Assembly: GCA_016807485.1 (NCBI GenBank)
Contig: JACEFY010000001.1
Coordinates: forward strand, 1 to 64,000
Length of the DNA: 64,000 nt
Direction of reading: 5' to 3'
From: Stenotrophomonas maltophilia
Lineage (GTDB): Bacteria > Actinomycetota > Actinomycetes > Actinomycetales > Microbacteriaceae
The translations under genes were made by a program, and so were the position numbers. Below, piece by piece: positions 32,024 through 56,372 of this stretch (positions within the stretch are counted from its first letter, which is position 1; the number at the start of each line of letters is the position of its first letter). The notes under the pieces are model-generated. The model worked only from the letters and a program-made list of their open reading frames with translations. It made no database searches and had not been told where the DNA came from.

Positions 32024-32901
32024 GAGATCACGCGTCCCTTCATCGACGGGCCGGTGGCGCGGGTCCGAAAGGCCGGCGTTGCCCCCGCCGCCGTTCGGTA
32101 CGCGGATCGGATGGTTGTGAGGATCTCGGCCTCGCGAAGGCCGACGTGCGCCGCCGCTGGACCAAGGACAGCTCGGGCGTTGACGTCGGGCACGCCGTTC
32201 TCCGCGAGGCGGCACGCCGCCCAATAGAGCGCAGCGTTGCGTTCACCTTCGACCCGGGTGGCGAGCCAAGCGGCGATCCGGTCGGTGTCGACTGCTCGCG
32301 GGGCATTCGGCGTCGCGATGGTCAGGGGAGCGGGCTTGGGGTTGAGGAACTGCCGAAGTGCGACTGCGTCGATCGGCACGGCGCCCGCGCGGCCGACACC
32401 GATCAACTCGTAGCTGGACCTGTTGCCTTCGAACATCACCCGCGACGGGGGAACGACCACGTAGCCGCCCTCGCCCCGGAAGTCGATGCCACACCGTGCC
32501 GCCTGCCACGACGGCTGGAGCCGCTGTGGGTCGGCGGGGTAGTAGGCATGCATGCCCCCGGATGCGGTCTTCACCAGAACCTGCCAGCGGTCGACCAGAC
32601 CTTCCCGCCGGGCGAGTTCGAAGGGACCGAATCCGCGCACCCGACCGTGAACATCGATGTCGACGACTTCGAGTCCGGAGCGGGAGCCGGTCGGCATCCC
32701 GATATTTGCCTCGGGCCATCGCGCCCACCACTGAGTGATCTGCTCGACATCGGAGGTCGCGTCGTGGAAGCCGTGTTGCGTCAGTGGGCGCTTCTCAGCG
32801 GCCTTGCACGGAAAGATCGACACCCCGGCGTCAGCGAATCGGGCGGCCCCCTCCGCAGGCGGAAGCCCCAGCACGGATGAAAGCAGCGCTGCCGTGTCCA
32901 T
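32020..32901 (-). CDS. Bifunctional DNA primase/polymerase (prim-pol)
   Basis: This 293-residue protein has a full prim-pol catalytic domain: 'GVSIFPCKAAEKRPLTQHGF', 'NIGMPTGSRSGLEVVDIDVH' with the catalytic Asp pair, 'TASGGMHAYY' with the His, and 'DFRGEGGYVVVPPS'. No helicase domain follows; the ~100 C-terminal residues resemble a primase C-terminal helical region. Enzymes of this type start and extend DNA strands on mobile elements, here probably to complete the transferred single strand. Start and stop overlap both neighbours. Confidence 0.87.
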   Translation of the reverse strand: MDTAALLSSVLGLPPAEGAARFADAGVSIFPCKAAEKRPLTQHGFHDATSDVEQITQWWARWPEANIGMPTGSRSGLEVVDIDVHGRVRGFGPFELARREGLVDRWQVLVKTASGGMHAYYPADPQRLQPSWQAARCGIDFRGEGGYVVVPPSRVMFEGNRSSYELIGVGRAGAVPIDAVALRQFLNPKPAPLTIATPNAPRAVDTDRIAAWLATRVEGERNAALYWAACRLAENGVPDVNARAVLGPAAAHVGLREAEILTTIRSAYRTAAGATPAFRTRATGPSMKGRVIS

Positions 32902-33983
32902 CAGAGCACCGGCCCTACCGTCGCGGAACGGGAGACGTGTCGCCGATCGGAGACCCTACGGCTGGTGTCACGGGCCGGATCCGTGGGAAGTGCCGTCGTC
33001 GACTCTCGCGACAGGCCCGGCGGATCACCTGCTCCCACCTGAGCCGTATGCAGCTGAGAGAGAATCGCGACCGCGGTCAGCCGCACACGTTCACCCGTTG
33101 CCTGAACGACCTCGACCGGCGTCTTCCCGTCGACGGAGGTCGCCCACGCCGAGACGTACGGGATCGTGTAGCTCGAGGTGTCGAGCCCGTGTGCCGCGCC
33201 GATCATCAGCGCGACAGATTCGGCCTCGACCTCGCCGATTCCCCGATGGAGGGATGCCTCGGGATGATCGGGCCCGTGGAGCTCCACGTGAGCGAGTTCG
33301 TGCGCGAGAGTCTTGGCGCGCGCTGCGGGATCGATGTCGCGTCTGACGGCGACGCTCCGAGTGAGGTAGTCGGTCATGCCGTTCGCTCCTCCCAGGTCCC
33401 GATCACTGTCGACAAGGCGCAACGAGTACCCGCGTGCGCGCACCAGCGTCGCGAGGCCGTCCCACATCCCCGGCGGTGCCTCACCCGCCAGGAGCCGCGG
33501 CCGAGGTTCCTCCGGAATCGGCGCACCGCTGGTCTGCGAGACATCCCAGACGTACGCCGGGCGAACGCCTATCAGGCGCGACTGCACCGCCTCGCCTTGC
33601 TGGGGAGCCTCGCGGGGCGCGAGCCTGCGCCACGATTCGGCGACCTGCGGAGTGCCCGAAGCGAATCGGCCGACGACGGGCGCGAGGATCATGTAGCCGG
33701 GTTGGCCGCGATCAACGGACCGCCCCAGCGTCAGCCACTGCCGGAAGCCCGCGACGTATGTCGGTGTGGGGGCGGAAACCCTGCCCTGCTCGAATGCCGC
33801 TGCATGCTGCATCCAGATGAGCAGGGTGTTGTTGAACGAGCGGGAGCGAAACCGGGCCGCAAACGCGAGAGCGCGGTTCCAGTCGTCGCCCGTCACAAGG
33901 TCGGCTACCGCATCAGCAAGCTGAGCGTGCAGCCGGTCGAGCCTTGCCGCTGTGACATCGTCGCCGGATCTTTGGTGAGCCAT
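32901..33983 (-). CDS. ardC: ArdC-like protein: ssDNA-binding domain + zinc metallopeptidase
   Basis: This 360-residue protein has an N-terminal ssDNA-binding ArdC domain ('DDWNRALAFAARFRSRSFNN' then 'LIWMQHAAAFEQG...VAGFRQWLTLGRSVDRGQPG') and a C-terminal M48-like peptidase domain with 'LAHELAHVELHG' (HExxH) and a downstream Glu in 'EVEAESVALM'. ArdC proteins travel with conjugating DNA and protect it from restriction; the N-terminal half binds single strands. It is the first gene of the long transfer operon. The TGA overlaps the prim-pol ATG. Confidence 0.9.
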   Translation of the reverse strand: MAHQRSGDDVTAARLDRLHAQLADAVADLVTGDDWNRALAFAARFRSRSFNNTLLIWMQHAAAFEQGRVSAPTPTYVAGFRQWLTLGRSVDRGQPGYMILAPVVGRFASGTPQVAESWRRLAPREAPQQGEAVQSRLIGVRPAYVWDVSQTSGAPIPEEPRPRLLAGEAPPGMWDGLATLVRARGYSLRLVDSDRDLGGANGMTDYLTRSVAVRRDIDPAARAKTLAHELAHVELHGPDHPEASLHRGIGEVEAESVALMIGAAHGLDTSSYTIPYVSAWATSVDGKTPVEVVQATGERVRLTAVAILSQLHTAQVGAGDPPGLSRESTTALPTDPARDTSRRVSDRRHVSRSATVGPVL

Positions 33984-37631: not shown

Positions 37632-38387
37632 TCACGGATCGAGCCGGCGCCCGAGGATTCCGATTGCGCAGTCGTCCTTCGTCGCGTTCCTGATGTTGAT
37701 GTTCACCAGCCGCCGCAATCGCTTCTTGTAGTCAGAGGTCTTGCTCTGGCCGCCCGGCGCCGTGCCCACCGCGTCAATGAGCTTCGCGCACGCACCGGCC
37801 AGCTCGCCGGTCCTTGGGTTGTACAGGCTGTCCGCTGTCCCGTCACTCATGAGGATGAATCCACCGACACCGTCCAGCGATCCTCGAAACAATCGCATTG
37901 ATTCGAGTGCACCGGAGGATGTGACGAACGTCGTTTGGTTCGCAAACTCGGTATTGTCGGGCCCCGAGATGAGCCTCAGCCCACCGTGCTTCAGGTAGCC
38001 CACGACGCCGTCACCGACATGAGCGCCGAGAAACGTATCGCCGGACACTGCTACGCAGAGGAATGTCGTGGCCAGATCCGCAGACGAGACGCCCCGCCGC
38101 TCGGCAACGGATGTGACTTTGGCGGCTAGTCGGCTGAGCAAATCCACCTTGACCCAGACGCCGTCGCTGGACGCCGCGTAATCGGCGAAACGCTCAATGA
38201 GTACGGCGCATCCTTCGTCAACGACCGCTTGGGCGCCCAGTTGGGAGTGTGATGCGGAACCCGCTCCGTCGGCCAGGCAGAGGACTTGGACCCCGCTACG
38301 AGACAGATACTTGGTCCGGTCTTGCACAGGCGTTCCGTCCCGGAGGTGACCGTGCCCCCGCGCCTGGTAATGAAACTCCTTGAACAA
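37632..38387 (-). CDS. PP2C-type Ser/Thr phosphatase of the TerY-P-like triad
   Basis: This 251-residue protein has the PP2C metal-site motifs: 'VLCLADGAGSA' (Asp40), 'GAHVGDGVVGYL', 'ILMSDGTADSL' and a final 'KDDCAIGIL'. All acidic ligands are present. The start is TTG 38387, directly after the TAG of the vWA gene, so translation is coupled. Such phosphatases form a triad with a vWA protein and a Ser/Thr kinase (TerY-P type) and would reverse the partner kinase's phosphorylation. The gene faces the alpha/beta hydrolase gene tail to tail with 81 bases between. Confidence 0.85.
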   Translation of the reverse strand: MFKEFHYQARGHGHLRDGTPVQDRTKYLSRSGVQVLCLADGAGSASHSQLGAQAVVDEGCAVLIERFADYAASSDGVWVKVDLLSRLAAKVTSVAERRGVSSADLATTFLCVAVSGDTFLGAHVGDGVVGYLKHGGLRLISGPDNTEFANQTTFVTSSGALESMRLFRGSLDGVGGFILMSDGTADSLYNPRTGELAGACAKLIDAVGTAPGGQSKTSDYKKRLRRLVNINIRNATKDDCAIGILGRRLDP

Positions 38388-39062
38388 CTAAAGTTCCGCC
38401 CAGCCGGCAAGCCCTTCGAGGTCGAGCTTGACGCTGTCACCGGGAGTCGAACGCGACACCCGAGAGACCGACCGAGAGAGCCACTCAAAGAACTCTTTGA
38501 ACTTGAGTCCGTCAAGACGCAACGGTGGACGGTTCGGGCTGAACCGCGCAAGCGTCTTCATGTCGGCTCCGCCTCCGATGCCAATGGGAAACACCGTGAG
38601 CTTCTTCGCCTCGACCAGATCGACTACCCGTCTGACGGCGAGGTCGATGTTGTCAGTCGGCGCGCCGTCAGTCATGAGCACCAACCATGGCTGGTAGTAC
38701 AGCACGCCGCTGCCAGAGTAGGTCGCTTTCCGCTTCTCCAGAGTGTCGAGCGCAAGGTTGACACCAGCACCCATGGCGGTTGTCCCGCTCGCCGTCAGAG
38801 CTGAGATCCGCTGAAGTCGCTCGATGCTCGCGAAGTCGTGCACGAGTCCGGCGGACGAGTTGAACTCCACGATGTTGATCTCCGCTGAGTCATGGGCATC
38901 GTCATCCTCGTCGATCGCGTCGTAGAACAGATTGACACCGCGGATGAGCTCCTGGATCGGCGAACCGCTCATCGAGCTGCTCGTATCGAGGCAGAGTGAA
39001 ACGGGTACGCGCGGGGTCGGGTTGTCGACGAGGTCGTCGGCTCCGATGTTGAGTCGTGCCAT
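38388..39062 (-). CDS. vWA-domain protein (TerY-like)
   Basis: This 224-residue protein is a single von Willebrand A domain with a complete MIDAS site: 'SLCLDTSSSMSG' (D26xS28xS30), Thr in 'ALTASGTTAMGAG' and Asp in 'LVLMTDGAPTDN'. vWA proteins of the TerY group bind metal-dependent ligands and act as adaptors in phosphorylation-controlled systems. It lies between the kinase and phosphatase genes in one operon, 29 bases after the kinase stop. Confidence 0.87.
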   Translation of the reverse strand: MARLNIGADDLVDNPTPRVPVSLCLDTSSSMSGSPIQELIRGVNLFYDAIDEDDDAHDSAEINIVEFNSSAGLVHDFASIERLQRISALTASGTTAMGAGVNLALDTLEKRKATYSGSGVLYYQPWLVLMTDGAPTDNIDLAVRRVVDLVEAKKLTVFPIGIGGGADMKTLARFSPNRPPLRLDGLKFKEFFEWLSRSVSRVSRSTPGDSVKLDLEGLAGWAEL

Positions 39063-39091: not shown

Positions 39092-41932
39092 CTAGCTACC
39101 GGTGAACCACTTCCCGAGCCGCGCCCAGAAGCCCACCTTGGGCTGCGCGGTCGGCTTTGAAGCGGAGGCACCCACGCTGCCCCGGGGCGCGCGTGGCGGG
39201 GTCGGAATACAACCAGCCGGGTAGTGCCCGCCGGCGCCGGTCTTATGTGTTGTGGGCACCGCTCTGCCGTTCCGCTGGTGCCATTCCACGTTTCCGTATG
39301 TGATGAACGGCTTCTGGCATCGAGCGCAGAGTCGAGACGGATCGAGCGTGTTGGCTCGCGCGTGCCGTTCGTCGTCCTTCTTCGCGCACGAAGGGCACCG
39401 ACCGTACCGCAGTTGGCTCTTCGGGAAGCTAAGGCCGCAGTCTCGACACGGAGCGGCGATGGGTCGGGAGGCCGCGACCCGACCCGGCTGTTGATCGCGG
39501 CACTTGTTGCACTGGCTCGGGACGAAGTACTCCTGGGTGTCGTCGCTCCAGATCCCGGCGATGGCGTTCGTACGTCCGCAAGTCGGGCAGTCCTGAATGG
39601 GGGTGTCTTGTTTGAATGCCTTGTTTCGGATCGGGTAGACGTCGTTCGACATTGGGTCGAAGCTCATCCGACTGTTCGCCAGATAGGACCTGTATGCGAT
39701 GAACGCTTCGAGCCACTCCGCGGCGGTCGGGCGATTCTTGTAGCGCCTGCCTTCGCGATGGAACGTGTGCCAGAAGAGATCCTTGACCGGCTTGTGGATG
39801 TGACTCCACATGTACTTCCAGTCGCCGTCCGGTTGGTCCTTGTTGTTGCGGTTCTCGTATTGGAAGGCGAAGTTCCCCTCCTTGATCAACTGCACAATGT
39901 CTCCGTCGGTACCCGTTCGGATATATGGGAACTGTCCGGTCATGACAATCATGAAAAGCATCGTTGCGACAGCGAAGAGTTCATCCTCAATCGTGCGCAG
40001 GTCGTCGGAGTACGTCTTGCCGAGCATGGCGGGTGAGGTGAACATTGGGGTGCCGACAGGGCAGGGGTATCCCTCGAGCTGCCAGGAGTCGGCGTCGATG
40101 ATGAAGACGTTCTTCCCTTCATCGATCATGAGGTTCTTTGGGTTGATGTCGCCGAGGATGACGTTCATGGAGTGCAGATACTGGACCTTCTCCAAGAACG
40201 AGATACAGATGTCGACGAGGTCGGACTTCTTCCACGTAGGGAACTCGCGCTCGAACTTCCGCTTGTTGAAGATTGTTCGTTGAAACTCCCGCCCGCTTGC
40301 CTTCGGCATCATGTATCCGACGAACTCGCCCTGACTGTTCTGGACTACCGCGGACGGAATGCAGAGGCCCTTCGCGCGGACTTTTCGGCTTAATAGCAGC
40401 TCGATCTTCTCCTTGCGGTGGCGGGTGAGGTGGTCCTTGTCGAAGATCTTGATCACCGTGCTTCGATCTGCCTCGTACACGGTCCCCTCCCCGCCTTCGC
40501 CAAGCAGCGCACCTATCGCGAGCGAGCCACTGCGGTCCGCGGATGCCCAAGTGACCTGGTCGCCCTGCCTCGGAAGTGCAGAGAAGGCGATTGGAGTGTC
40601 GCGCGGCTTGAGCTTTGCCGTCGCAGAGAACGGGTTGGTTGGTGTTGCTGCGGCAGCAGTGCGTCGCGGCGCCGAGGACGCCGACTTCGCGGCTCTGGGG
40701 CCAGGCTTGGCGCTGGGTTCCTTCAGGCCGAAGGCCTTGCGGAAGTCATCCAGAATCGGCTTCAGCGCCGCGACTTCGGACTCGTCCTTGAACGTGCCAG
40801 TTCCCTCAGCAATGTGTGCAGAGTGGCGCTTGTACTTGCGGAATCCACGCTCGAAGAGCGACTCGTCGGAGTCGACCTCGAGGTCGCCATCCTTCGTGAG
40901 AACTCCAACGAGAAGGGGCTTAGCGAGGCGGTGCGCGAGGAGGCGAATCCGCAGCTTAATGGTGATGTCATGGGTGAGCAGGCACATCTCATATGTGCCG
41001 GCAAATCGTTCGAAGAGCCTCAGGAAGAGGTCGTCAGCGTAGGGGTTGGTGTCATCGCCGAGGTTCTTGCGCACCAGACCGACTTTGCTCGCGCTCTCGA
41101 GGAACGTCAGCGCAGCAGCTGCCTTCTTGATCGCTTCGGCGCGTTCTGCAGTCTCACCAGTGGGGTCGATCCGGCTCTGCTTGGTGAGTTCGCCCACAAC
41201 CTTCGTCGGCACGATCACGGCGCTTCCATTCGCGAGGATTACGCTCTGCCCGCGCTCGAAGAGGCGCTTCAGCCCTCCAGCGCGGCGTGCATCCGTGTCC
41301 ATAAAGACGTTCGTGTCGATGAACAGCCGTCGGTTTGGCTGCAGGAACTCGACAGGGTCGAGGAGCTGGTGCTCGATTGCTGTGGACACTGCGCGTGCTC
41401 CATGTGTCTGAATAGCCAGGACTTCGGGGGCGGACGCGTGTGACTGTGCGGCGCCCGATGGTCGACCGAGTCGGGCACCGCCTCGTGGGCCGCGATCGTT
41501 GGGGCCACCAGAAGTCGCGCCGTCCTCGGTGCGGTGCTCTGACCAGGCGAGTCGCTCCTGAAGCAATGCGACTGAGAGGACTGGGGGACTCCCGTACCGA
41601 GAGTCAATGACGAGCGCTTCAATCTCGTCACCGACTGACAGAGCTTGGCGCGGCTTCCTCCCGGCCTCGACAGGCAGTTCGTTCAAGGGGATGCGCCCTA
41701 CTGTTCCGAGCCCGAGGTGGACGAGAACGTCGTTGCCGCTGACGTCCGCCACAACTCCCGTTACAACCTGGCCCTCGTCGGCGAAGTAGCCTCCCGCCGA
41801 ATCCGAGGCGTCGCCGGCAGGGTCATAGACCCACCGACGGTTGGTGTAGTCGTAATACCAGCCTTCCGGGTCATCCCAGCCTTCGGGTTCATCCTGGTGG
41901 GACCAGTGGCTCTTGCCGTGCGGCGCGCTCAT
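39092..41932 (-). CDS. S1 - PIN RNase - protein kinase - zinc-ribbon fusion
   Basis: This 946-residue protein has, in order: a Trp/Tyr-rich N-terminus (19-38); an S1-like RNA-binding OB fold (about 54-125); a PIN nuclease domain (about 200-340) with acidic residues D206 in 'LFIDTNVFMD', E248 in 'VVGELTK', D300/D301 and D322 in 'LLTHD'; a disordered linker (400-450); a Ser/Thr kinase (about 470-770) with G-loop 'GEGGEGTVY' (478-486), K495 in VIKIF, catalytic D595 in 'LGDINPKN' and metal D613 in 'IIDADSW'; then three Cys-pair zinc ribbons. Kinase, vWA and PP2C form a TerY-P-type triad, but an S1-PIN head is unusual. I infer an RNase toxin whose activity or target binding is set by phosphorylation. 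Confidence 0.85.
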   Translation of the reverse strand: MSAPHGKSHWSHQDEPEGWDDPEGWYYDYTNRRWVYDPAGDASDSAGGYFADEGQVVTGVVADVSGNDVLVHLGLGTVGRIPLNELPVEAGRKPRQALSVGDEIEALVIDSRYGSPPVLSVALLQERLAWSEHRTEDGATSGGPNDRGPRGGARLGRPSGAAQSHASAPEVLAIQTHGARAVSTAIEHQLLDPVEFLQPNRRLFIDTNVFMDTDARRAGGLKRLFERGQSVILANGSAVIVPTKVVGELTKQSRIDPTGETAERAEAIKKAAAALTFLESASKVGLVRKNLGDDTNPYADDLFLRLFERFAGTYEMCLLTHDITIKLRIRLLAHRLAKPLLVGVLTKDGDLEVDSDESLFERGFRKYKRHSAHIAEGTGTFKDESEVAALKPILDDFRKAFGLKEPSAKPGPRAAKSASSAPRRTAAAATPTNPFSATAKLKPRDTPIAFSALPRQGDQVTWASADRSGSLAIGALLGEGGEGTVYEADRSTVIKIFDKDHLTRHRKEKIELLLSRKVRAKGLCIPSAVVQNSQGEFVGYMMPKASGREFQRTIFNKRKFEREFPTWKKSDLVDICISFLEKVQYLHSMNVILGDINPKNLMIDEGKNVFIIDADSWQLEGYPCPVGTPMFTSPAMLGKTYSDDLRTIEDELFAVATMLFMIVMTGQFPYIRTGTDGDIVQLIKEGNFAFQYENRNNKDQPDGDWKYMWSHIHKPVKDLFWHTFHREGRRYKNRPTAAEWLEAFIAYRSYLANSRMSFDPMSNDVYPIRNKAFKQDTPIQDCPTCGRTNAIAGIWSDDTQEYFVPSQCNKCRDQQPGRVAASRPIAAPCRDCGLSFPKSQLRYGRCPSCAKKDDERHARANTLDPSRLCARCQKPFITYGNVEWHQRNGRAVPTTHKTGAGGHYPAGCIPTPPRAPRGSVGASASKPTAQPKVGFWARLGKWFTGS

Positions 41933-42321
41933 TGCGCGTCGCCGAACGAGATGTTGCTACGGAACTCGGTGAGTGCTTCAGCCGCCTCCTCATGCTCCTG
42001 TTGGCGTTCCCGCTGATACTTCGCAATCGCACGCATGGGAATTCGACGATGGCTCCCGACGCGGATATGTTCCACCGTGCCCGCATCGACGAGCTTCATC
42101 AGGGTGGGTCGTGACATGCCAAGCATTGTCGCGGCCACTGTGCTCGTGAAGAGATCCTTGGCGGGAATAATGACGGCTCCAGTTGAGTGTTCGGCCTCGA
42201 GCAACTCCAGCACCCTCTCAGCGCTCCGACGCGTCAGGTTGAGCGTCACAGTCACCTCGTCCGGCGACGCTTCCAGAGCGTCACGCAGCGCCTGGATGTC
42301 GTCGGGAAGAATCTCTGACAT
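41929..42321 (-). CDS. HTH antitoxin/repressor of the kinase-PIN module
   Basis: This 130-residue protein starts at ATG 42321 with GGAGG upstream. An N-terminal segment (about 10-45) resembles antitoxin DNA-binding/TA-type regulators ('VTVTLNLTRRSAERVLELLE'). The C-terminal excisionase-like HTH ('STVAATMLGMSRPTLMKLVD...VEHIRVGSHRRIPMRA') follows. This arrangement typifies antitoxins paired with PIN (VapC-like) toxins in actinobacteria. Its stop overlaps the ATG of the PIN-kinase gene, so it would be made first. Two AAGTG-repeat operators upstream suggest autoregulation. Confidence 0.8.
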   Translation of the reverse strand: MSEILPDDIQALRDALEASPDEVTVTLNLTRRSAERVLELLEAEHSTGAVIIPAKDLFTSTVAATMLGMSRPTLMKLVDAGTVEHIRVGSHRRIPMRAIAKYQRERQQEHEEAAEALTEFRSNISFGDAQ

Positions 42322-42329
42322 GGTCACCT

Positions 42330-42383
42330 CCAAGTGCAGCAAGTGGATCTAACTGAAATAACTGTAGCCAAGTGCTGTAAGTG
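42330..42383 (-). promoter_or_regulatory. Two-copy operator of the HTH/PIN-kinase operon
   Basis: CCAAGTGCAGCAAGTG (42330-42345) and CCAAGTGCTGTAAGTG (42368-42383) match at 14 of 16 bases. Each contains two AAGTG half-sites 9 bases apart. The second copy lies exactly between the -35 and -10 of the promoter and the first in the untranslated leader next to the start codon. This is the strongest regulatory site in the window and is most simply bound by the HTH protein itself. Confidence 0.75.
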
Positions 42384-42390
42384 AAGTCAA
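42361..42390 (-). promoter_or_regulatory. Promoter of the HTH/PIN-kinase/vWA/PP2C operon
   Basis: On the minus strand, TTGACT (42390-42385), an 18-base spacer and TACAGT (42366-42361) form a sigma-70-like promoter about 40 bases before the ATG. The spacer is filled by one operator copy, so binding should block RNA polymerase. Confidence 0.6.
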
Positions 42391-42546
42391 TAGTCAGGCT
42401 GAGAACTACGAATTGGTTCCACGAAAACGAGATCGTTGCAGGTAGTCGGTCCCGGCGCCGGCCGATCGAGTGGCTTCTGACCACACCCGATCATTACGCC
42501 TCGTCCATCCAACGAGAGTCCACACGTCTTGCAGATCGAGGGCCGT

Positions 42547-42589
42547 GCCCGCTGGCGCGGGCCCGGCTGCACCACCTCTCGTACAGAGG
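42547..42589 (+). other. Candidate oriT hairpins upstream of the relaxase gene
   Basis: GCCCGC-TGGC-GCGGGC (42547-42562) and CCTCT-CGTAC-AGAGG (42575-42589) are two adjacent hairpins within the 200 bases before traA. MobF relaxases usually nick at an oriT with inverted repeats close to their own gene. The second hairpin also overlaps the AGAGGAGAGG ribosome-site region of traA, so it could instead control translation. The nic site cannot be read from sequence alone. No gene is seen in 42391-42603. Confidence 0.4.
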
Positions 42590-42603
42590 AGAGGCGGTGC
42601 CAG

Positions 42604-45600
42604 GTGTCGGTCTCGATGCGGGTGATGAGCGCGGGGGATGGGTACAAGTACCTTCTCCACACCGTGGCCGCGGCCGACGGCGAGCGGCCGCTCTCCACCC
42701 CGCTCACCCGCTACTATGCCGAGGCTGGCACACCACCAGGCCGCTGGCTCGGGAGCGGACTACCGGGGCTGGCCGACGGCAGGATCGACGCGGGCTCACG
42801 TGTGTCCGAAGCGCAGCTCGAGCTGCTCCTGGGGATGGGTCGAGACCCCGGCACCGGCGCCCCGCTCGGCCGGGCGTATCCCGAGTACGCGGTATCCGAG
42901 GCGAGCCCGGACCAACGGGTCACAGACACGCCACCGCCATCTCGCCGCCGTGCCGTCGTCGGCTACGACTTCACGTTCTCACTGCCCAAGTCGGCGTCGG
43001 TTCTTTGGGCGGTGGCCGACGCCAGCACTCAGGCCACAATCGCCGCTGCGCACCACAAGGCGATCGGCGACGTGCTCGCCTTCATGGAGCGCGAGCTCGC
43101 CGCAACCCGGGCCGGCGAAGTGGGGCGTGATGGTGCCGTCGCGCAGGTCGAGGTGACTGGGCTGATTGCCGCGGCGTTCGATCACTTCGACTCCCGCGCG
43201 GGCGATCCGCAATTACACACGCACGTCGTGGTGAGCAACAAGGTACGCACTGTGTTCGACGGCAAGTGGCGGTCGCTCGATGGACGTCCGCTGCACGCGG
43301 CGACTGTTGCGCTGTCTGAGCTGCACACAGCCGTGTTTGCTGACCACCTGTCACGTGCGCTCGGCGTCCGATGGGAACAGCGCGAGCGCGAAGCCGACCG
43401 CAACCCGGTGTGGACGATCACCATCGTTCCCGAGCATCTCGTTGCCGAGTTCTCATCCCGGTCGCGCCACATCGACATCGAGAAGGACCGGCTCATCGAC
43501 GAGTACGTCGCCACCCACGGCCGCGCGCCGTCAAAGGTGACGATCATCCGTCTCCGTCAGCAGGCGACGCTCGCGACGCGTCCCGAGAAGCAGCTCCGTT
43601 CTCTCGTCGACCTCACACACGAGTGGCGCGCACGCGCCAGCCGGCTGCTCGGCCGCGACCCAACAGCCTGGGCGCGCGCCGCGGTGAGTCGCCAGGACGC
43701 CCCGAAGCCGCTACGTGCCGAGGACATCGAGCGCAGCATCCTGAACCAGCTCGCCGACCACGTGGTCGAAGCGGCAAGCGAGCGCCGCTCGACGTGGACC
43801 CGCTGGAACCTCTACGCCGATGCTGCGCGCCAGACGATGGGTTGGCGCTTCGCCGCCACCGAGGACCGCGAGGCGATCGTGGGCATGATCACGGATGCTG
43901 CGGAGCAGCGCTCCACGCGCCTCACGCCACCCGAGCTCGCGGTCTCGCCCGCCGAGTTTCGACGTGCCGATGAGGCGAGCGTCTTCCGCCCGCGCAACTC
44001 CGAGCGCTACTCATCGATTGCGCTGCTGGATGCGGAGGATCGGCTGCTCGCCGCGTCGCACGCGACGGATGCGCCGGTGGTCAGCGTGGCAACTCTCGAA
44101 CGCGCCGAGCGTGCGCGCCGCAATCACGGGATCGTGCTCGGTGACGACCAGCGCGCGGCGCTCCACGCGATCGCAACCTCCGCACGCTCACTCGACCTGC
44201 TGATCGGCCCGGCCGGCGCCGGCAAGACCACCGCGATGCACGCACTCCGCCTGGCGTGGGAGCACGAGTACGGCCGCGGCTCAGTCATCGGGCTCGCACC
44301 ATCGGCAGCGGCCGCACGCGAACTCGCCGACGACCTCGGTATCGCGACCGAGAACGCCGCCAAATGGCTGCACGAGCACAGCCAGGGACGCGCAACCGTG
44401 CGCGCATCACAACTTGTCATCATCGACGAGGCATCCCTCGCCGGCACGCTCACACTCGACCGCATCAGCACGCTGGCGATGCAGGCAGGTGCGAAAGTTC
44501 TCCTGGTGGGGGACTGGGCGCAGCTGCAGTCGGTCGACGCCGGCGGCGCGTTCCGGATGCTCGTCGAAGCACGCGCCGATGCTCCTGAACTCGCCGACGT
44601 GCACCGCTTCCGCAATGCGTGGGAGAAGGAGGCGTCCCTCGACCTGCGCAACGGGCGACTGCGAGCCCTCGACGCGTACGGCGCGCACGACCGGATCGTC
44701 GGTGGCGACGCCGACGCGATGGCGGATGTCGCGTACAGCGCCTGGCTCCGAGACATCGCGGAGGGCATGTCGTCGGTTCTCGTCGCCGAGACAGGCGAGG
44801 CGGTCGCCACGCTCAACCGACGGGCGCGCGCCGAACTCATCCTCACCGGCGTCGTGGAGGTCTCGGCCGAAGCGCCCCTGCGGGATGAGTCCGCAGCATC
44901 CGTCGGTGATCTCATCATCACCCGGAAGAACGACCGCCGCCTACGCTCGGGACGGGACTGGGTGCGCAACGGCGCCCGATGGAAGGTTGTCGCCGTTCGT
45001 CGCGACGGCTCGCTGCGCGTACAGAACACCGACCGCGCCGGCGCTCGACCGATCACGCTGCCGGCCGGCTACGTGGCCGAGAACGTCGACCTCGGTTATG
45101 CGGTGACCGCCTACCGCGCGCAGGGGATCACGACCGACACCGCGCACGCCGTCGTCGAGCCCGGAACGACGCGCGAGAACCTGTACGTCGCGATGACGAG
45201 GGGGAGAGCCTCGAACACCGCGTACGTGGTCGTGTCGCGCCCCGACGACAATCACTCTGCTCGGCATCCGGGTGAGCGTCCGGATGCCACGGCCCGCGAC
45301 ATTTTCGCCGGCGTGCTCGCACACGTCGGCGCCGAGCTGTCGGCACACGAGACGGTCGCCGCCGAGCAGGAGGCCTGGGGATCGATCGCGCATCTCGCCG
45401 CCGAGTACGACACGATCGCTGTGTCCGCGCAGCGGTCACGGTGGACGAAGCTCGTTCACGCCTGTGGTCTGCCCGTTGATCTGGCCGAATCGGCGATCGA
45501 GTCGGATGCCTTCGGCGCACTGACTGCGGGCCTTCGCCGCGCCGAGGCCCTCGGTCACAACGTTGAGATGCTTCTCCCGCGGCTCGTCGCCGCGCGTGGA

Positions 45601-46101
45601 TTCGAAGACGCTCAGGATGCCGCGGCCGTGCTCCACGAGCGGCTTGAGCGGGTCCTCGCTCAGCCAACGAGCGGCAGCTCGCGGGGGAGTGGGCGCAGCC
45701 TGATCGCTGGCCTCATCGCAACGGCGATGGGGGAGATGGATGCCGAGATGCGGCGTGCCCTCGACGAACGGGCCCACCTCATCGAGGAGCGCGCGTTGGC
45801 ACTCGTCGAATCTGCAGTGGCATCGGGGGAGAGGTGGGTCGCTTCGCTCGGACGCGTCCCCGCTGAGCGGGCGCGAGCAGTCGCCTGGCGGCACGAGGCG
45901 CGCATTGTTGCCGCGTACCGTGACCGGTACGGCGTTCTCGAGGATGACGCGCTCGGCGCTCCCGCGACGTCTCCGAACCAACGAATGGATGCGGCGGCCG
46001 CAGCCGTGGCGCGGGATCGAGCGATCTGGCTGTCGCGGGCGGATGCTCCTACACAGCCGCAGCGGGCATCCGCGCGGACGCGGCCTATCCACAGCCTGTA
46101 G
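42604..46101 (+). CDS. traA: MobF-family relaxase/helicase TraA
   Basis: This protein of 1165 residues from GTG 42604 (product begins MSVSMRVMSAG...) starts this close because the MobF domain begins there; the longer frame starts in the oriT region. The relaxase domain has catalytic tyrosines Y37/Y38 in 'TPLTRYYAEAGTPPG' and metal histidines H194, H205 and H207 in 'HFDSRAGDPQLHTH'. The helicase half has Walker A 'LIGPAGAGKTT', 'LVIIDEASLAG' and a late UvrD/RecD2-like 'GYAVTAYRAQGIT'. It nicks oriT, stays bound to the 5' end and unwinds DNA during transfer. A basic helical tail of ~250 residues follows. Confidence 0.93.
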   Translation: MSVSMRVMSAGDGYKYLLHTVAAADGERPLSTPLTRYYAEAGTPPGRWLGSGLPGLADGRIDAGSRVSEAQLELLLGMGRDPGTGAPLGRAYPEYAVSEASPDQRVTDTPPPSRRRAVVGYDFTFSLPKSASVLWAVADASTQATIAAAHHKAIGDVLAFMERELAATRAGEVGRDGAVAQVEVTGLIAAAFDHFDSRAGDPQLHTHVVVSNKVRTVFDGKWRSLDGRPLHAATVALSELHTAVFADHLSRALGVRWEQREREADRNPVWTITIVPEHLVAEFSSRSRHIDIEKDRLIDEYVATHGRAPSKVTIIRLRQQATLATRPEKQLRSLVDLTHEWRARASRLLGRDPTAWARAAVSRQDAPKPLRAEDIERSILNQLADHVVEAASERRSTWTRWNLYADAARQTMGWRFAATEDREAIVGMITDAAEQRSTRLTPPELAVSPAEFRRADEASVFRPRNSERYSSIALLDAEDRLLAASHATDAPVVSVATLERAERARRNHGIVLGDDQRAALHAIATSARSLDLLIGPAGAGKTTAMHALRLAWEHEYGRGSVIGLAPSAAAARELADDLGIATENAAKWLHEHSQGRATVRASQLVIIDEASLAGTLTLDRISTLAMQAGAKVLLVGDWAQLQSVDAGGAFRMLVEARADAPELADVHRFRNAWEKEASLDLRNGRLRALDAYGAHDRIVGGDADAMADVAYSAWLRDIAEGMSSVLVAETGEAVATLNRRARAELILTGVVEVSAEAPLRDESAASVGDLIITRKNDRRLRSGRDWVRNGARWKVVAVRRDGSLRVQNTDRAGARPITLPAGYVAENVDLGYAVTAYRAQGITTDTAHAVVEPGTTRENLYVAMTRGRASNTAYVVVSRPDDNHSARHPGERPDATARDIFAGVLAHVGAELSAHETVAAEQEAWGSIAHLAAEYDTIAVSAQRSRWTKLVHACGLPVDLAESAIESDAFGALTAGLRRAEALGHNVEMLLPRLVAARGFEDAQDAAAVLHERLERVLAQPTSGSSRGSGRSLIAGLIATAMGEMDAEMRRALDERAHLIEERALALVESAVASGERWVASLGRVPAERARAVAWRHEARIVAAYRDRYGVLEDDALGAPATSPNQRMDAAAAAVARDRAIWLSRADAPTQPQRASARTRPIHSL

Positions 46102-49639: not shown

Positions 49640-52600
49640 ATGCAGACGTACCTCGCGACAGTTGGCGTCGCCGCGAAGCAGTTCCTTGCCGCGAACTTGC
49701 ACAGTCTCGGTGATGACTGGTGGAGCCGGGGGGTGGTGAGCGCCCTGAGTTTTCCGCAACGGCAGCTAGCAAGTGAGCGAGGATGGACAACACTCGACGA
49801 CCTCGACCTCGCGGCGCTCCTTCGTGTGATCGACCAGAACTGGGATTACTTCCGCACGAAGAAGCTCGTCTCGTATGACGCACGGAATTGGTTAAAGGAA
49901 ACTGCGAGTATCCGTAATCGCTGGGCGCATGCGGCACCGGGGGAGCGGCGCGACCCGAAGGGAGAGTATCGGGATCTCGACACTCTCGCCCTGCTTGCTG
50001 AAGCGTTGACCGGTCCAAGCGCCGAGACGGCGACACTCAAGCGTGCCCGGGATGAAGCTCTCAGTTCCATTCAGGGATCCAGCGATCGCCCACAGCGGGA
50101 ACCTAAGCCAGCTGCGGACGAGTGGCTTGCCCCGGGAGCCATGGTTCGCCTCATCGCGCGCCCGCAGTCGATCGGTGTTGCAACCCTTGTTCTTCCGGGC
50201 TCGACGGAGCGGCAGGCAACCGTCTTCCTCGACGGTGCGTCGCAGTCTTTCTACGAATCTCAATTGGAGCCGCACGAAGAAGCGACGGTCGACACTCTGT
50301 CTGCGGATCGCATGCGTCTGAGCATCACGGCGTCCGAGTTGCTTAACCCGGCGACGAGCCGTCTGTACTCCTTCAACTCCGGCCGCATCGACTACGAGCC
50401 GTATCAGTTCCGTCCAGTGATGAAGATGATCAACGCTGATCGGCCGCGGCTGTTGATTGCCGATGACGTTGGTGTTGGAAAGACGATCGAAGCTGGCCTG
50501 ATCATCAAAGAGCTTCAGGCGCGACAACCACTCGAATCTGTCCTCATCATCTGCCCCAAACCGCTGGTGGTTGAGGGAAAGTGGCGAGCGGAGCTCAAGC
50601 GCTTCGACGAAGACTTTGTGGAGCTCGATGCCGCCACACTCCGGCACTGCATCGACGAGACGCGCCTCGAGGGCGTTTGGCCACGCAGGTATCGGAAGGC
50701 GATACTCCCATACTCACTTCTCGACGAGCGGCTGTTGCTTGGCGATCTCCAGGCCAAGCCAAAGCGCTTCGGGTTGACCTCACTGCTGCCACCGGTGAAG
50801 TTCGATCTGGTGATCGTCGACGAGGCGCACCATGTCCGCAACCGCGACACGTGGCGACATCGAATCGTTGAGCACCTGATGCGCTCTGCGGAGGCCGGCG
50901 TCCTGATTTCGGCAACCCCGGTCCAGACGGGCAGCAACGACCTGTTCACGCTGCTGCGCTTGTTGCGTCCGGATCTGATGCTGACCCCGGCGGACTTCGA
51001 TCGCATGCGGGAGCCAAATGAGTTTCTCGCTGATGCGGAAACCGAAGCGCGGCGCGGGCAGCCGGGGTGGCAGGAAGGCGCGCTTTACGGGCTCGAGCTT
51101 GCCCTTGAAACCGACTGGGGGAGGGCCGTCCTCCTCGCTGACCCTCAATCCCAACAGTTGCGTGACGTGCTGGAAAGCGGGGCGGACACGGATCGTGACC
51201 GAGTCCGCGTGGTGCGCTTGCTTCAATCGCTCAACACCTTCTCAGGGCTTATCAACCGCACCCGACGGCGCGACATCGGCAATTTCACTACACGCAAGCC
51301 TGAGACAGTCGAAGTGGAGTTCACTCCGGAACAGGCAGAGGTGTACCAAGACCTTATTGCTCTCTGCGGTCAGATCCTCCAGGGCCGGCACCCCGGTCAA
51401 TCGCTCGAGTTCCTCCTCTCGACCCTGAAGCGACAGGCGTCCAGCTCACTGAATGGACTCGCTCCATTCCTGGTTGAGGCGCTTGAAGGCCGCCTGAGTG
51501 AGGAGGAGCTCAGCGAGGCCGATATCGATTCGTCCGATGCCGCTACGAGCCGCCTCGCCGACTTCCGCGCCGACATCGTCGCTCTTGCCCGGAGAGCAGC
51601 CGAGCTCGAAGAGGATCCGAAACTGGATGCGCTGATCGGCATTGTCGGGGAGAAGTCGACTATGCCCAACAACAAGCTGTTGGTGTTCAGTACATTCCGT
51701 CACACACTCGCCTACCTGCTCCCGAAGCTCGAGGCGTCGGGCGTGCGTGTCGGTTTGGTTCATGGCGCGATCCCCGACGATGAGCGCCGAGATCTGCGCG
51801 CTCGCTTTGCCATGGATAAGGCGGAATCCAATGCGATCGACGTCCTCTTGTCCTCTGAGGTGGGCACCGAAGGGCTCGACAACCAGTTTTGCGATGCGCT
51901 TGTGAACTACGACATTCCATGGAATCCGATGCGCATTGAGCAACGCATTGGCCGCATCGATCGCCGCGGACAGAAGAGCGAGTCTGTGTCGATCAAGAAC
52001 CTGGTGGTCAAGGACACAGTGGACTTTGCGATCTACAGTCGCTGCCTCACGCGCATCGGAGTGTTCCGCTCTGCGCTCGGTGGGAGCGAGGAAATACTCG
52101 GCCAACTTACTAGTCAGATGCGCGCCATCGCTGAGGACCTGACTCTCACTAAAGCCGAACGGGATGAGCGACTTCAGCAGTTGGCGGACAACAAGCTAGC
52201 TCGCATCGAAGAGCAGGCTGACTTGGAAGAACGCGAGGCCGCGCTGTTCGGTCTGGCAGTTCAGAAGATTGATGAAGACGGGGTGGCGTCAGCGGTAAGC
52301 CCGTGGCTGACGCCGACACGTCTGGGCGCCATGGTTGAGGAGTACCTGTCACAGGCCGGGCTTCCGCGAGCGAGCGGACTGTTCTCCCGTGAGGTGGGAG
52401 TACTTCGACCGGACAAGGCGGTGCGCGCAGCGCTGCTTTCTGACGCACGGCGGGAAACGATCGCCGGTGCGGTCGGTGCGAGATGGTTGCGGTGGCTCGA
52501 ATCCAGCGATCCAGTGCGTCGTCTCTCTTTTGATCCCGCGCTCGCCGACTCCGATGAAGTTGAGCTGCTCAACGCTCTCCATCCGTTGGTCCGGGCCGCG

Positions 52601-53146
52601 GCGCGGTCAGTCGGTGCCGTGCCGAGCGGATCGGCTGTGTCGCTTCGCGCCGAGTCGCCCGAGCTACCTCCCGGACGCTATCCATTTGCGGTGTATGGCT
52701 GGAAAGAGTTCGGTGTGCGAGACAGCTTCGAAGTGCGGGTGCTCGGGCTCGACCCGGCGGAAGACCGTGCTTTGGCAGATGCGCTGCTGACCGCCACGGA
52801 TGGCGAGGGCAGCCTCGAACTGGAAGAAGCAGGGGCGCTCGAAGATCGCCGCTACGCGGCATGGGCCGATGCGCGGGAATCACACCTGCAGCGCACACAC
52901 GTACACATCGACGCTCAGCTCGCCTCCCTTCGGCTTAGCCACGCGGCGAGAATCGCGCAGCTGGAGGACCAGCTGATCAACGCGGCTCACGAGAACATTC
53001 GGCGCATGCGTGAGTCGCAGTTGCAGGACGCCGACCTTGATTATCAGCGTCGAACGGATGAGCTGGAGCAAGGGCGCACGCGAAGTGATGTCGCGGTTTC
53101 GCTGGTCTGCTCAGGGGTGCTGCACATCGAGGAGTCGAAGTCATGA
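49640..53146 (+). CDS. HEPN (Swt1-like) + SNF2-type helicase fusion
   Basis: This 1168-residue protein has an N-terminal HEPN/Swt1-like helical domain (1-130) with 'SIRNRWAHAAP', giving the RNase-type R92-x4-H97 motif. A SNF2/HepA-like helicase follows: Walker A 'IADDVGVGKTIEAG' (around 274-287), 'VIVDEAHHVRN' (DEAH at 394-397), and C-terminal motifs 'SSEVGTEGLDNQFC' and 'IEQRIGRIDRRGQ'. A long coiled tail ends the protein. Helicases of this class (DrmD-like) occur in DISARM. The HEPN fusion suggests that DNA sensing by the helicase is linked to RNA cleavage; this is inferred. Start ATG has GGAGAG upstream; the stop overlaps the next gene by 4 bases. Confidence 0.85.
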   Translation: MQTYLATVGVAAKQFLAANLHSLGDDWWSRGVVSALSFPQRQLASERGWTTLDDLDLAALLRVIDQNWDYFRTKKLVSYDARNWLKETASIRNRWAHAAPGERRDPKGEYRDLDTLALLAEALTGPSAETATLKRARDEALSSIQGSSDRPQREPKPAADEWLAPGAMVRLIARPQSIGVATLVLPGSTERQATVFLDGASQSFYESQLEPHEEATVDTLSADRMRLSITASELLNPATSRLYSFNSGRIDYEPYQFRPVMKMINADRPRLLIADDVGVGKTIEAGLIIKELQARQPLESVLIICPKPLVVEGKWRAELKRFDEDFVELDAATLRHCIDETRLEGVWPRRYRKAILPYSLLDERLLLGDLQAKPKRFGLTSLLPPVKFDLVIVDEAHHVRNRDTWRHRIVEHLMRSAEAGVLISATPVQTGSNDLFTLLRLLRPDLMLTPADFDRMREPNEFLADAETEARRGQPGWQEGALYGLELALETDWGRAVLLADPQSQQLRDVLESGADTDRDRVRVVRLLQSLNTFSGLINRTRRRDIGNFTTRKPETVEVEFTPEQAEVYQDLIALCGQILQGRHPGQSLEFLLSTLKRQASSSLNGLAPFLVEALEGRLSEEELSEADIDSSDAATSRLADFRADIVALARRAAELEEDPKLDALIGIVGEKSTMPNNKLLVFSTFRHTLAYLLPKLEASGVRVGLVHGAIPDDERRDLRARFAMDKAESNAIDVLLSSEVGTEGLDNQFCDALVNYDIPWNPMRIEQRIGRIDRRGQKSESVSIKNLVVKDTVDFAIYSRCLTRIGVFRSALGGSEEILGQLTSQMRAIAEDLTLTKAERDERLQQLADNKLARIEEQADLEEREAALFGLAVQKIDEDGVASAVSPWLTPTRLGAMVEEYLSQAGLPRASGLFSREVGVLRPDKAVRAALLSDARRETIAGAVGARWLRWLESSDPVRRLSFDPALADSDEVELLNALHPLVRAAARSVGAVPSGSAVSLRAESPELPPGRYPFAVYGWKEFGVRDSFEVRVLGLDPAEDRALADALLTATDGEGSLELEEAGALEDRRYAAWADARESHLQRTHVHIDAQLASLRLSHAARIAQLEDQLINAAHENIRRMRESQLQDADLDYQRRTDELEQGRTRSDVAVSLVCSGVLHIEESKS

Positions 53147-56100
53147 AGTACACGTCTCTCGATCACCTCAGCATGGAACGGCGTCGCGAAGTCGATGCGG
53201 CAAGCAATCTGCTGGGCGACGGGCTTCGGGATCTCCTAGCCGGCTTGTATTCCGATCAGGCGCACTTCATCTACGAACTTCTCCAGAATGCTGAGGATGC
53301 CCACGCGTCTTCAGTGGCGTTCCATGTGGCCGAGGACCGTCTTGTCTTCAGCCACGACGGCACAGAGGACTTCTCTCTCGCCGACGTCGTTGCCATCACG
53401 CGGATCGGCTCAAACAAGCGCGACGACGACACCAAGATCGGTCAGTTCGGCGTTGGGTTCAAAGCTGTCTTTTCGTACACAGCGCGACCAGTGATCCGGT
53501 CCGGGGGTTACGCGTTCGCGATCGAGGAGATGTTCATTCCTCGGCCGCTTGATTGCGAGCCGCTCACGGGAGCCACGGAGTTCGTTTTCCCGTTCGACCG
53601 TGACGACAAGCCGGCTGACGTGGCCCGGGTTGAGATCGAGGAGGGATTGCGCGGCCTCGGGGACACAACGTTGCTCTTCCTAACGAACATTCGGCAGATT
53701 CGGTTCACACTCTCGAACGGCGACACCGGAGCGCTGGAGCGGACTGAAGATGCCTATCCGCTCGTATCCATTACTCACCGCGTCGCTGACGAATCACTAC
53801 AGTCAAAGTGGCTGCGCCTCGTAGGTGACAGGTCGCTCTCGTCGATCATTCCGGAGGGAAGGACTGTCGCAGCTGCGTTTCGCTTGGTGGAGGATGCGGA
53901 CCGCAGGGCGGGCAAAGGCAAGCGTCGAGCTCTGGCGGTCGAGGCGCTGAAGCGAGGCGAAACGTGCGTGTTCTTTCCTGCGCCGAAAGAGCACTCCGAT
54001 CTGAGGTTTCACATCCACGCACCGTTTGCACCGACGCCGTCTCGCGAGAGCATCAAGAAGATCCCCGAGAACGCCGAGCTGCTGAGTGCAATTGGCAAGC
54101 TCATCGTCGGGGCGCTGCCGATGCTGCGTGATGAAGGTTGGCTGACGGATGGTTTTCTGGGTGCGCTGCCCAACCCGGAGGATGAGCTTGTCGCGCCTTA
54201 TGACGGAGTCTTCGACGCGCTGTACGACGCCTTTCGCGCCCAAGACTTCACCCCGACGATTGGTGGCGGCTTTGCTCCAGCCGCGGAGCTGGTGGCGAGT
54301 CCCGGCATCTTCCGCACCGCACTCTCGGCTTCTGACCTCTCATTCCTCACCGCACTTGTCGGCGACTATCCAGCAAGCCCGCGTTGGCTTCCCGAACGCA
54401 CCGGTCGAGCGAACCAGTTCCTGCTCGGCCTTGATGTGCGCGAGTTCGGCTGGAGTGAGCTCGATGATGTGTTCGACGCGGTGGAGGTCGACTACGAGGA
54501 GGGTGACACCGACAGCACAGGCCACCGATGGGGGTCATGGCTGGAAGGTAAGAGTGACACGCAGCTTGGGGCCCTATATGAGCTCCTCGGTGCCGGGTTT
54601 GAGGCCGGCGAGTTTCGCTCGGGATGGTATCTCACCGGCTTTGATGGACCGCTCATCCGCGTGTGGGCAGAAGGCGCGCCAACGCTTGTCCCCAGGGGCG
54701 AGGCGCACCTTCCCGCGACTCCTGACGACACCACCGACGGCAGGGTTGTCCAGGACGTTGCGTACTTCGAGGACGACACTCACAGCAGATCGAAGACGAG
54801 GCGCATGGCCTTCTTCTCCGGCATCGAGGTTCGCCGATGGGATGAGCGTGCGCTCGTCAAAGCTCGCGTCAGGGACTACGAGGCTCAGGAGTGGCCGGAA
54901 GACCACCAGCACTTCAACGATCTGCGATTGTTCATTGCCTACTTGAAAGGGAACCCACGCGATACGTCGCTCTTCCGTGACGTGCATCTCGTGAAGGTCG
55001 ATGGCGAGAAGGGCGAACTCTGGGCGAAGACGGGCAAGGTCTACGTGGACTCCCCATTTAAGGAGACAGGCCTGTCCGCACTCTACGGACACGGAACCAC
55101 TTGGTACCCGCTGTCGTCGAGCTATCGCGGGAGAGTGGCGGGCGTCGACGACTTCGTTCTGGCGCTGGGTGGCAAAGACTCTCTATCGATTCGAGGCGCG
55201 ACCTCTTCCAAAAACCCCGAGTATGAGCCGCGTTGGTACACCGTTGGTACTCGCTGGACGGACCAGGGGACTAAGCGCGACTGGGATCTACCAGAGGTCC
55301 CCGCGATCCTAGAGTCGGGCAATCGGGCACTACTCAGCAGGCTGTGGGATCTGGCGGTTTCGAGTCCGGAACACTACGCGCGCGCCGTGTTCCAACTCAA
55401 CGGAAGTGCGACACCGCATCCGATGCGGTCGCAACTTGCGCAACGCCTCGAGGTCGAGTGGATTCTCGACCACGCCGGCGAGCTGCGATCGCCTCGATCG
55501 ATGACCGTCGAGGAGCTCCCGCCGGGCTGGCCGGAACCGCCCGCGAGATCGTTGGTGATGGCTCTGGGTTTCGGTGCTGACGCCCGTGAGCGTGATGCTG
55601 CGGCGCAGGTTCGCGCTGAGCGAGCGAGGGAGATTGGTATCCCGATCGCATTCCTCGACGTCCTGGATGGCCTCGCGGATGACGAGCGCGAGGCCGCATT
55701 CGCGGAATTCATCGACCGCGCCCGCGCACAACGGCACTTCCCTGTGAGCGCATCAGCGAACCCCACCAGACGCGCCTCCGTGGTTGGTGCTGAGGCCACC
55801 GATGCACCCGATTTCGCCACGCAGCGCCGGCTCCGGAGCGTAGTGATTGGACGCGGGGAGAGCGCGCAGCGCACACGCCAGTACCTTCGCGAGCAGTACA
55901 CAGATAACGCGGGGATCATGTACTGCCAGGTCTGCCATAACGCTCTGCCTTTCAAGGTTGCGGACGATTGGTACTTCGAAGCCGTTCAGTTCGTCAAGGC
56001 GCGAGCCAAGACGCACCACCAGAACGCGCTGGCGACCTGCGCTGCCTGCTCAGCGCTCTATACGCTCACGCGGTCAACGGCAGACGCTGCCCTCATGGAG

Positions 56101-56253: not shown

Positions 56254-56341
56254 GCGCGACGTCATTCTCCGACTGAATGTGCCGCGCATCTAGCTGTTCC
56301 ACGTCGGTCGTGTCCTCGCCGTGAGCGTCCCAGCCTCCCGC

Positions 56342-56372
56342 TAGGCTCGGACACAACCGGAACAACCCGGTT
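56342..56372 (+). promoter_or_regulatory. Possible promoter and operator of the DUF499/methylase operon
   Basis: TAGGCT (56342-56347) fits a -10 box. Just downstream, AACCGG (56355-56360) and CCGGTT (56367-56372) form an inverted repeat with a 6-base spacer, before the ATG at 56390. The dyad could be bound by the HTH protein encoded next. No recognisable -35. The 136-base region 56254-56389 holds no other gene. Confidence 0.4.

Follow-up and report, generated by a model that had tools for sequence, protein, structure and literature searches.

The 64,000-nucleotide stretch of DNA analysed here (the window) carries an operon of four minus-strand genes, encoding an HTH protein, an S1-PIN-kinase protein, a VWA protein and a PP2C-type phosphatase, and the array of short repeats that precedes the HTH gene raises the question of whether this protein controls its own operon and, if so, from what kind of operator. 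Known antitoxins usually have paired-site operators. An earlier note on this DNA had likewise described two paired AAGTG sites, and had proposed cooperative autorepression by the HTH protein. The promoter was shown here to be overlain by a real and conserved operator of six repeats; the idea of autoregulation is likely to be right, and the accompanying picture of the operator was incomplete. On the evidence presented below, the HTH protein probably represses its own operon by forming a cooperative head-to-tail row on the six repeats.

The operator consists of six direct repeats of CA(C/G)TT(A/G) on the minus (coding) strand, located at 42328-42383 with a spacing of 9-10-9-10-9 bp, and starts in the -35/-10 spacer, spans the -10 box and the leader, and reaches the Shine-Dalgarno sequence (Table 1). 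The coding strand, taken from the -35 box as far as the start codon, reads TTGACTT / CACTTACAG / CACTTGGCTA / CAGTTATTT / CAGTTAGATC / CACTTGCTG / CACTTGGAGGTGACC / ATG. The AAGTG half-sites reported earlier were recovered at 42332-42336, 42341-42345, 42370-42374 and 42379-42383 (plus strand), as were the two 16-base sites that contain them (42330-42345 and 42368-42383; 14/16 identity, starts 38 apart) and the TTGACT/TACAGT promoter, with the second site in its spacer and the first in the leader, where 8 bases separate it from the HTH start codon (42321-42319). These AAGTG pairs correspond to repeats 1-2 and 5-6 of the array. The operator can nevertheless not be described as two paired sites 38 bases apart, as a middle pair, CAGTTATTTCAGTT (42364-42351, minus strand; repeats 3-4), had been overlooked, which sits between the two AAGTG sites and completes the array.

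Table 1. Promoter elements, operator repeats and genes of the operon, in window coordinates
Feature	Position	Strand	Remarks
-35 hexamer TTGACT	42385..42390	minus	promoter scan, sequence
Repeat 1, CACTTACAG	42375..42383	minus	inside the -35/-10 spacer
Repeat 2, CACTTGGCT	42366..42374	minus	spacer; last base is also the first of the -10 hexamer
-10 hexamer TACAGT	42361..42366	minus	18-bp spacer from the -35 hexamer
Repeat 3, CAGTTATTT	42356..42364	minus	shares its first four bases with the end of the -10 hexamer TACAGT
Repeat 4, CAGTTAGAT	42347..42355	minus	near the inferred start of transcription and the beginning of the leader
Repeat 5, CACTTGCTG	42337..42345	minus	leader
Repeat 6, CACTTGGAG	42328..42336	minus	leader; overlaps the Shine-Dalgarno GGAGG
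Shine-Dalgarno GGAGG	42327..42331	minus	sequence
HTH protein, 130 aa, presumed repressor/antitoxin	41929..42321	minus	HTH_17 / excisionase-family (truncated MerR-like) domain, residues 58-106
S1-PIN-kinase protein, 946 aa	39092..41932	minus	S1 53-111, PIN ~203-312 (sub-threshold), kinase 474-741 (Pfam Pkinase)
VWA (TerY-like) protein, MIDAS-like DTSSS	38388..39062	minus	Pfam VWA
PP2C-type phosphatase	37632..38387	minus	Pfam PP2C_2

A scan of 42000-42800 for sigma-70-like promoters returned one (minus strand, TTGACT -18 bp- TACAGT), compared with 0.2 expected from shuffles, and TACAGT with an 18-bp spacer was also the top-scoring promoter in the related loci L033, L034, L035, L036, L045 and L080. 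The 16-base pattern AAGTGNNNNAAGTG occurs twice in the window compared with 0.03 expected, two occurrences being reached in 0/100 shuffles. The six repeats score 36/36 for CASTTR, the best of 1000 dinucleotide shuffles reaching 28, and chains scoring at least 29/36 are confined, within the window, to this minus-strand stretch; the consensus was taken from the window array itself, so that the relatives provide a fairer test, and repeats 3 and 6 overlap the -10 box and the Shine-Dalgarno sequence, which are constrained in any case. With 3 mismatches allowed, the 16-base pattern gave 5 matches in the whole window versus 4.48 expected, i.e. chance level, and across the whole genome the exact pattern was found twice, both times at this operator, and a reversed control pattern three times. 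It is thus the clustering of the sites that is unusual, and not their number, as the loose-pattern and genome-wide counts are both near chance.

A paired arrangement could still be retained if each AAGTG pair were to bind one HTH dimer, with the dimers cooperating over 38 bp and the middle CAGTT pair being simply part of the promoter. No exact matches other than the AAGTG pairs occur in the window, and CACTT is common to the outer pairs and not to the middle one; the half-sites, however, are direct and not inverted repeats, and this arrangement is considered unlikely, also in view of the conservation pattern described below.

Relatives of the operon were sought by means of degenerate patterns on genome contigs, and these patterns were few and short, so that the resulting collection does not represent a census. 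The pattern scan identified 14 loci encoding the kinase protein, with an HTH gene directly upstream in 11 of them and no HTH match in L037, L040 and L043. Two additional HTH-bearing operons (L047, from a Paenarthrobacter conjugative plasmid, and L080) and one additional HTH-less operon (L081) were included, and the sample, with the window, comprised 14 operons with the HTH gene (the window, L033-L036, L038, L039, L041, L042, L044-L047 and L080) and 4 without it. The kinase, VWA and PP2C proteins were all matched in 13/14 pattern-scan loci, the stretch available for L045 ending within the kinase gene, and the VWA protein was matched at E<=1e-50 in 5/396 genomes of the order, its own included. 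Left out of the counts were L006 (nearly a duplicate of L007), L062 (the same place as L016), the own-genome copies L001-L003 and L049, L082 (with ORFs as in L043, and taken as the same genome) and L048, an AT-rich viral contig whose match to a four-repeat pattern was rejected as a plain tandem repeat. Searches of viral contigs returned no relatives of the kinase protein, the HTH alignment or the VWA protein.

The array, in full or in part, was found upstream of the HTH gene in 13 relatives, the HTH proteins being 47-91% identical. With slot registers set by hand, six slots are filled in 10 of the 14 operators, and five or four in two operators each, some of them by weak repeats such as CAATAG, and the distance of the repeats from the start codon is nearly constant. 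In these hand-set registers, the within-pair gap is 9 in 38/38 cases and the between-pair gap is 10 or 11 in 25/25, although slots 4-6 of L034 and L045 may alternatively be read as 10-10 rather than 11-9. Chain scores were computed for 12 relatives (L080 being left out), and in nine of these they lay above all 1000 shuffles; the weaker chains of L042 and L044 were reached by 1 and 2 of 1000 shuffles, respectively, and the six-repeat chain of L039 was not significant, its score being reached by 48/1000. A motif-free autocorrelation of the 14 leaders, assessed with 300 shuffles, was highest at lags 9 (0.397, z 10.0) and 19 (0.392, z 9.9), with lesser peaks at lags 6, 10 and 15 (z 4.4-4.9), compared with values of 0.24-0.30 at all lags in an upstream control region (-175..-100); these z-scores overstate independence, as the 14 operators are related.

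The best-kept repeats are those of the middle pair, with C, A, T and T present at slot 3 in 12-13 of 13 operators and at slot 4 in 13-14 of 14, whereas the outer pairs are variable or absent among the relatives (L044, L039). A paired-dimer operator was rejected on this basis, and the 9-bp runs of four repeats at distant relatives (see below) likewise argue against it. Within each locus, agreement was higher at motif positions (0.73) than in the linkers (0.39), in 14/14 loci, and the greater divergence of the linkers speaks against a recent duplication; an origin of the array by tandem duplication, of which the repeats would be remnants, was therefore rejected. A function of the repeats at the RNA level, in the leader mRNA, would agree with the location of repeats 4-6 in the presumed leader, where repeat 6 touches the Shine-Dalgarno sequence, but not with that of repeats 1-2, which precede the -10 box and would remain untranscribed from this promoter. 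Either of these explanations, RNA-level action or duplication, is highly improbable.

The array occupies the intergenic region between the operon and a divergent MobF relaxase gene (42529-46101, plus strand), and a different regulator, belonging to the host or serving the relaxase gene, could recognise the repeats, in which case the HTH protein would act elsewhere. Several comparisons render this distinctly improbable. Among the window, L033 and L080, ungapped identity was 78-86% across the array versus 27-33% in the ~100 nt upstream, and L035 and L036 gave corresponding values of 83 and 30%, the array being kept while the upstream sequence differs in 4/5 locus pairs compared; L034 and L045 are alike throughout (array 97%, upstream 94%). 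Furthermore, the array was absent from the 1500 nt before the kinase match in the four HTH-less operons tested (p 0.595-0.895), whereas eight HTH-bearing loci, run through the same scan as a positive control, scored 25.9-37.6 and exceeded every shuffle of the HTH-less four (maximum 19.4). The array was thus observed, whole or partial and in hand-set registers, in 14/14 HTH-bearing operons and in 0/4 HTH-less ones, which is the conservation upstream of homologous operons that the earlier note had named as a check; a relaxase-linked operator was rejected, as the array goes with the HTH gene. This co-occurrence, combined with the position of the array over the promoter, provides good support for the autoregulatory part of the mechanism originally proposed, and its cooperative nature is plausible.

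More distant HTH genes display a wider 9-bp pattern. The 52 loci analysed comprised 28 of the 29 listed non-self loci from a first set, in which 120/297 genomes were matched, and 24 of the 25 non-self loci from a second. A PIN-like ORF, recognised by a signature devised for this analysis, follows the HTH gene in at least 35 of the 52, and ten next ORFs picked by hand as PIN-like all matched PIN_3 at E<0.01, eight of them above the cut-off. A PWM trained solely on the 14 module operators, with 200 dinucleotide shuffles per locus, detected four-repeat chains at p<=0.01 in 26/52 of these held-out upstream regions compared with 1/52 downstream controls (31 versus 4 at p<=0.05), the remaining 26 failing at p<=0.01, and the gaps were 9-9-9 in 22 of the 26 passing chains. 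Good examples are provided by L056 (CAGTTGTTG CAGTTGTTG CAGTTGGAG CAGATGAGG) and L015 (CACTTGTTG CGGTTGCTG CGGACACTG CGGATACTG). Lag 9 was the top lag in 22.7/52 loci (ties split), the runner-up being lag 6 with 6.3; the means of this max-window test are also raised at 6, 12 and 15, as from codon periodicity, and the held-out PWM test is therefore preferred. By eye, many of the distant chains begin at a -10 box resembling TACAGT, TACACT or TATAGT, and CG-type repeat variants are visible at several of the non-passing loci. The presence of comparable arrays before other HTH_17 genes in other genomes also argues against use of the array by a different regulator.

BldC of Streptomyces (PDB 6AMA, 6AMK), a MerR-like wHTH protein, binds ~9-bp direct repeats that share with those described here a C-A-n-T-T register and a variable number. 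One BldC protomer binds per 9-bp direct repeat, C-AATT-N4-(C), in a head-to-tail, directional manner that is extendable to filaments, two repeats being bound at a stoichiometry of 2:1 and four at 4:1 (PMC5859096). The repeat described here, C-A(C/G)TT-(A/G)N3-(C), has the register and length of that of BldC. In a profile alignment of the HTH family with BldC (44 columns, 32% identity, hhalign probability 65%), Gly44, His46, Arg48 and Arg30 of BldC were placed opposite G89, H91, R93 and K76 of the HTH protein, respectively. In BldC, where Gly44 is an interface residue and His46 belongs to the wing, G44E, H46E and R30A abolish binding and Arg48 makes a wing contact (PMC5859096); in the HTH family, H91, K76 and R93 are invariant, and G89 is replaced by A in L038 and L041.

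The sequence similarity between the two proteins is nonetheless weak. No link to BldC was found by BLASTP, and BldC was not returned at E<=10 by a profile search of PDB sequences, in which a cobalamin-binding MerR-like protein was the top match. The two structure models obtained were poor (pLDDT 52 and 64), and a Foldseek search placed BldC at rank 1 with a non-significant E value of 1.1. The HTH protein differs from BldC in having Lys for Arg30 and Leu for Trp31, and is composed of 130 aa with additional N- and C-terminal parts, compared with the 68 aa and single domain of BldC; its N-terminal part of ~50 residues aligns in 13/13 rows, and its C-terminal tail reads FRSNISF. The operon described here is further distinguished from BldC by its paired spacing, 9-(10/11), and by the predicted role of the HTH protein in self-regulation of a PIN-kinase operon.

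RdfS, which belongs with BldC to the HTH_17 group, oligomerises with a spacing of approximately one molecule per 10 bp and is able to activate promoters (PMC11963761), and BldC is cited in the CvkR paper as the direct-repeat case among MerR-type repressors (PMC9938897). From the register and length of the repeats, the residues aligned with BldC and the packing of RdfS, we infer a head-to-tail row; six direct repeats, arranged as three 9-bp pairs at a pitch of 19-20 bp, point to an assembly of the BldC type, and the 9-(10/11)-9-(10/11)-9 spacing is suggestive of three units, each of two tightly packed protomers. We infer that the HTH protein binds the array with this geometry and represses the operon, and that its PIN-kinase partner releases it. 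The HTH protein would bind six 9-bp sites, C-A-(C/G)-T-T-(A/G)-N3, with one protomer per repeat and all in the same direction, each protomer contacting its neighbour head-to-tail, as in BldC. Once filled, the row would stretch from the -35/-10 spacer over the -10 box and the start point as far as the ribosome-binding site, thereby switching the operon off, and the operon would be switched on when the amount of free HTH protein drops, or when the PIN-kinase partner titrates or releases it.

Binding to the array could also serve mainly to activate transcription or to organise DNA, as with Xis-like HTH_17 proteins (recombination directionality factors), and the assignment of the HTH protein to HTH_17 (Pfam) and to TIGR01764 'excisionase', its conjugative-looking surroundings and the properties of RdfS would fit such a role. 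The array, however, covers the -10 box and the Shine-Dalgarno sequence, which is a repressing position, and activation or DNA organisation is regarded as quite unlikely. Repression by a head-to-tail row would be the natural outcome of its covering both promoter and Shine-Dalgarno sequence. The conserved operator grammar, which fits an assembly of the BldC type, makes MerR-PIN regulation directly testable and offers a means to find such operons and promoters; if the proposed mechanism is true, BldC-like direct-repeat regulation would extend to toxin-antitoxin and defence-like modules.

MerR-PIN modules have been known from sequence prediction since 2009, when they were described by Makarova et al. 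as a predicted, plasmid-enriched type II toxin-antitoxin family, in which a truncated MerR-like HTH protein with a small N-terminal domain is encoded directly upstream of a PIN protein (PMC2701414). The same arrangement is found here, with a truncated MerR-like HTH that lacks the dimerisation helix, a small N-terminal domain and an adjacent PIN-encoding gene. The PIN domain of the window protein corresponds to PIN_12 at E 0.00031, below the cut-off, and three other relatives scanned similarly gave PIN_12/PIN_4 matches below the cut-off, compared with a PIN_4 match above the curated cut-off in L047. In contrast to the simple two-gene MerR-PIN module, four genes are present: PIN forms one protein with a kinase, and genes for VWA and PP2C proteins come after it. 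The description of the module as toxin-antitoxin-like is therefore apt for its HTH and PIN part, which fits the predicted MerR-PIN family, and is too narrow for the whole, which is more than a toxin-antitoxin pair. Functional work on MerR-PIN modules was still called for in 2023 (PMC10669575), and merR matches were treated in the text of another study as an artefact of its own search (PMC2446400). Among the titles and abstract openings listed by searches of an open-licence library, none announces an operator or direct repeats for MerR-PIN antitoxins.

The TerY-P triad consists of a VWA protein, a PP2C and a Ser/Thr kinase with a zinc ribbon (PMC11090510), and a kinase-zinc ribbon/PP2C/vWA set has also been described elsewhere (PMC7159879). 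All three proteins are encoded here too, with a MIDAS-like motif in the VWA protein and, at the C-terminus of the kinase protein, cysteine pairs that were read in the sequence as resembling zinc ribbons and gave no Pfam zinc-ribbon match. Unlike in TerY-P, the kinase carries PIN and, in the window, S1 at its N-terminus, and the first gene of the operon encodes a MerR-like HTH protein and is preceded by a repeat operator. The operon thus combines two units, a predicted MerR-PIN toxin-antitoxin pair and a kinase/VWA/PP2C triad of the TerY-P-like type, and the operator marks this conserved union of the two. Versions of this operon, four of them without the HTH gene, are conserved in Arthrobacter, Nocardioides, Mumia, Agromyces and other actinobacteria, and L083 represents a more distant TerY-P-like locus. 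The S1 RNA-binding domain (Pfam) is encoded at 41600-41776, N-terminal to PIN. Compared with the window kinase protein, L033 aligns over its full length, L080 from residue 39 and the other relatives from ~residue 139 onward, for which reason the S1 part seems confined to the group of the window, L033 and L080.

In 14/14 operons, the C-terminal end of the HTH protein reads F-x-(S/Q/N)-N-(I/V)-(S/T)-F or closely resembles it (41932-41964 in the window; GRSNVTF in L047), compared with 0/29 generic relatives checked, i.e. those of the first distant set. In the HTH-less loci L040 (5478-5999) and L043 (5580-6119), the ORF just before the kinase, which has no Pfam match, carries RFLSNVTFGG and RFASNIIFGD, respectively, near its end. 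The C-terminal tail of the HTH protein may dock on the PIN-kinase protein, a possibility put forward as a lead. It is further possible, though doubtful and offered tentatively, that the MerR-PIN antitoxins constitute a broad class of repressors resembling BldC and acting on rows of 9-bp repeats fused to the -10 box, unlike paired-site operators. In the PIN-kinase branch, the row would be built of three two-protomer units (9-10-9-10-9), and the FxSN(I/V)(S/T)F tail would allow a PIN-kinase under VWA/PP2C control to dissolve it, constituting a phosphorylation-gated toxin-antitoxin switch.

The surroundings of the operon look like those of a conjugative element, and nearby genes encode a TraG-like coupling protein, a ParB-like protein, an ArdC-like protein, two GmrSD-like proteins and a DrmD-like helicase, of which the GmrSD, DrmD-like and ArdC-like genes are the only context for a possible anti-phage or metal-sensing role. 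PADLOC returned weak matches to mad1 for the HTH protein (E 0.00022) and to PD-T4-6 (1.6e-7) and mad6 (0.00014) for the kinase protein. At 49640-63256, a DrmD-like helicase with a HEPN_Swt1 domain is followed by sacsin-like, DUF499 and DUF1156 proteins, a gene set which we take to resemble a DISARM/Hma-type defence cluster, and neighbouring genes at 14160-18205 encode two proteins that each have an N-terminal GmrSD domain (type IV restriction-like). An ArdC-N match accompanied by a sub-threshold IrrE-like match at 32901-33983 (minus strand) indicates a possible anti-restriction factor. For the MobF relaxase/helicase, the TTG listed as start codon probably lies too far upstream, and MRVMSAGDGYKYLL looks like the true N-terminus.
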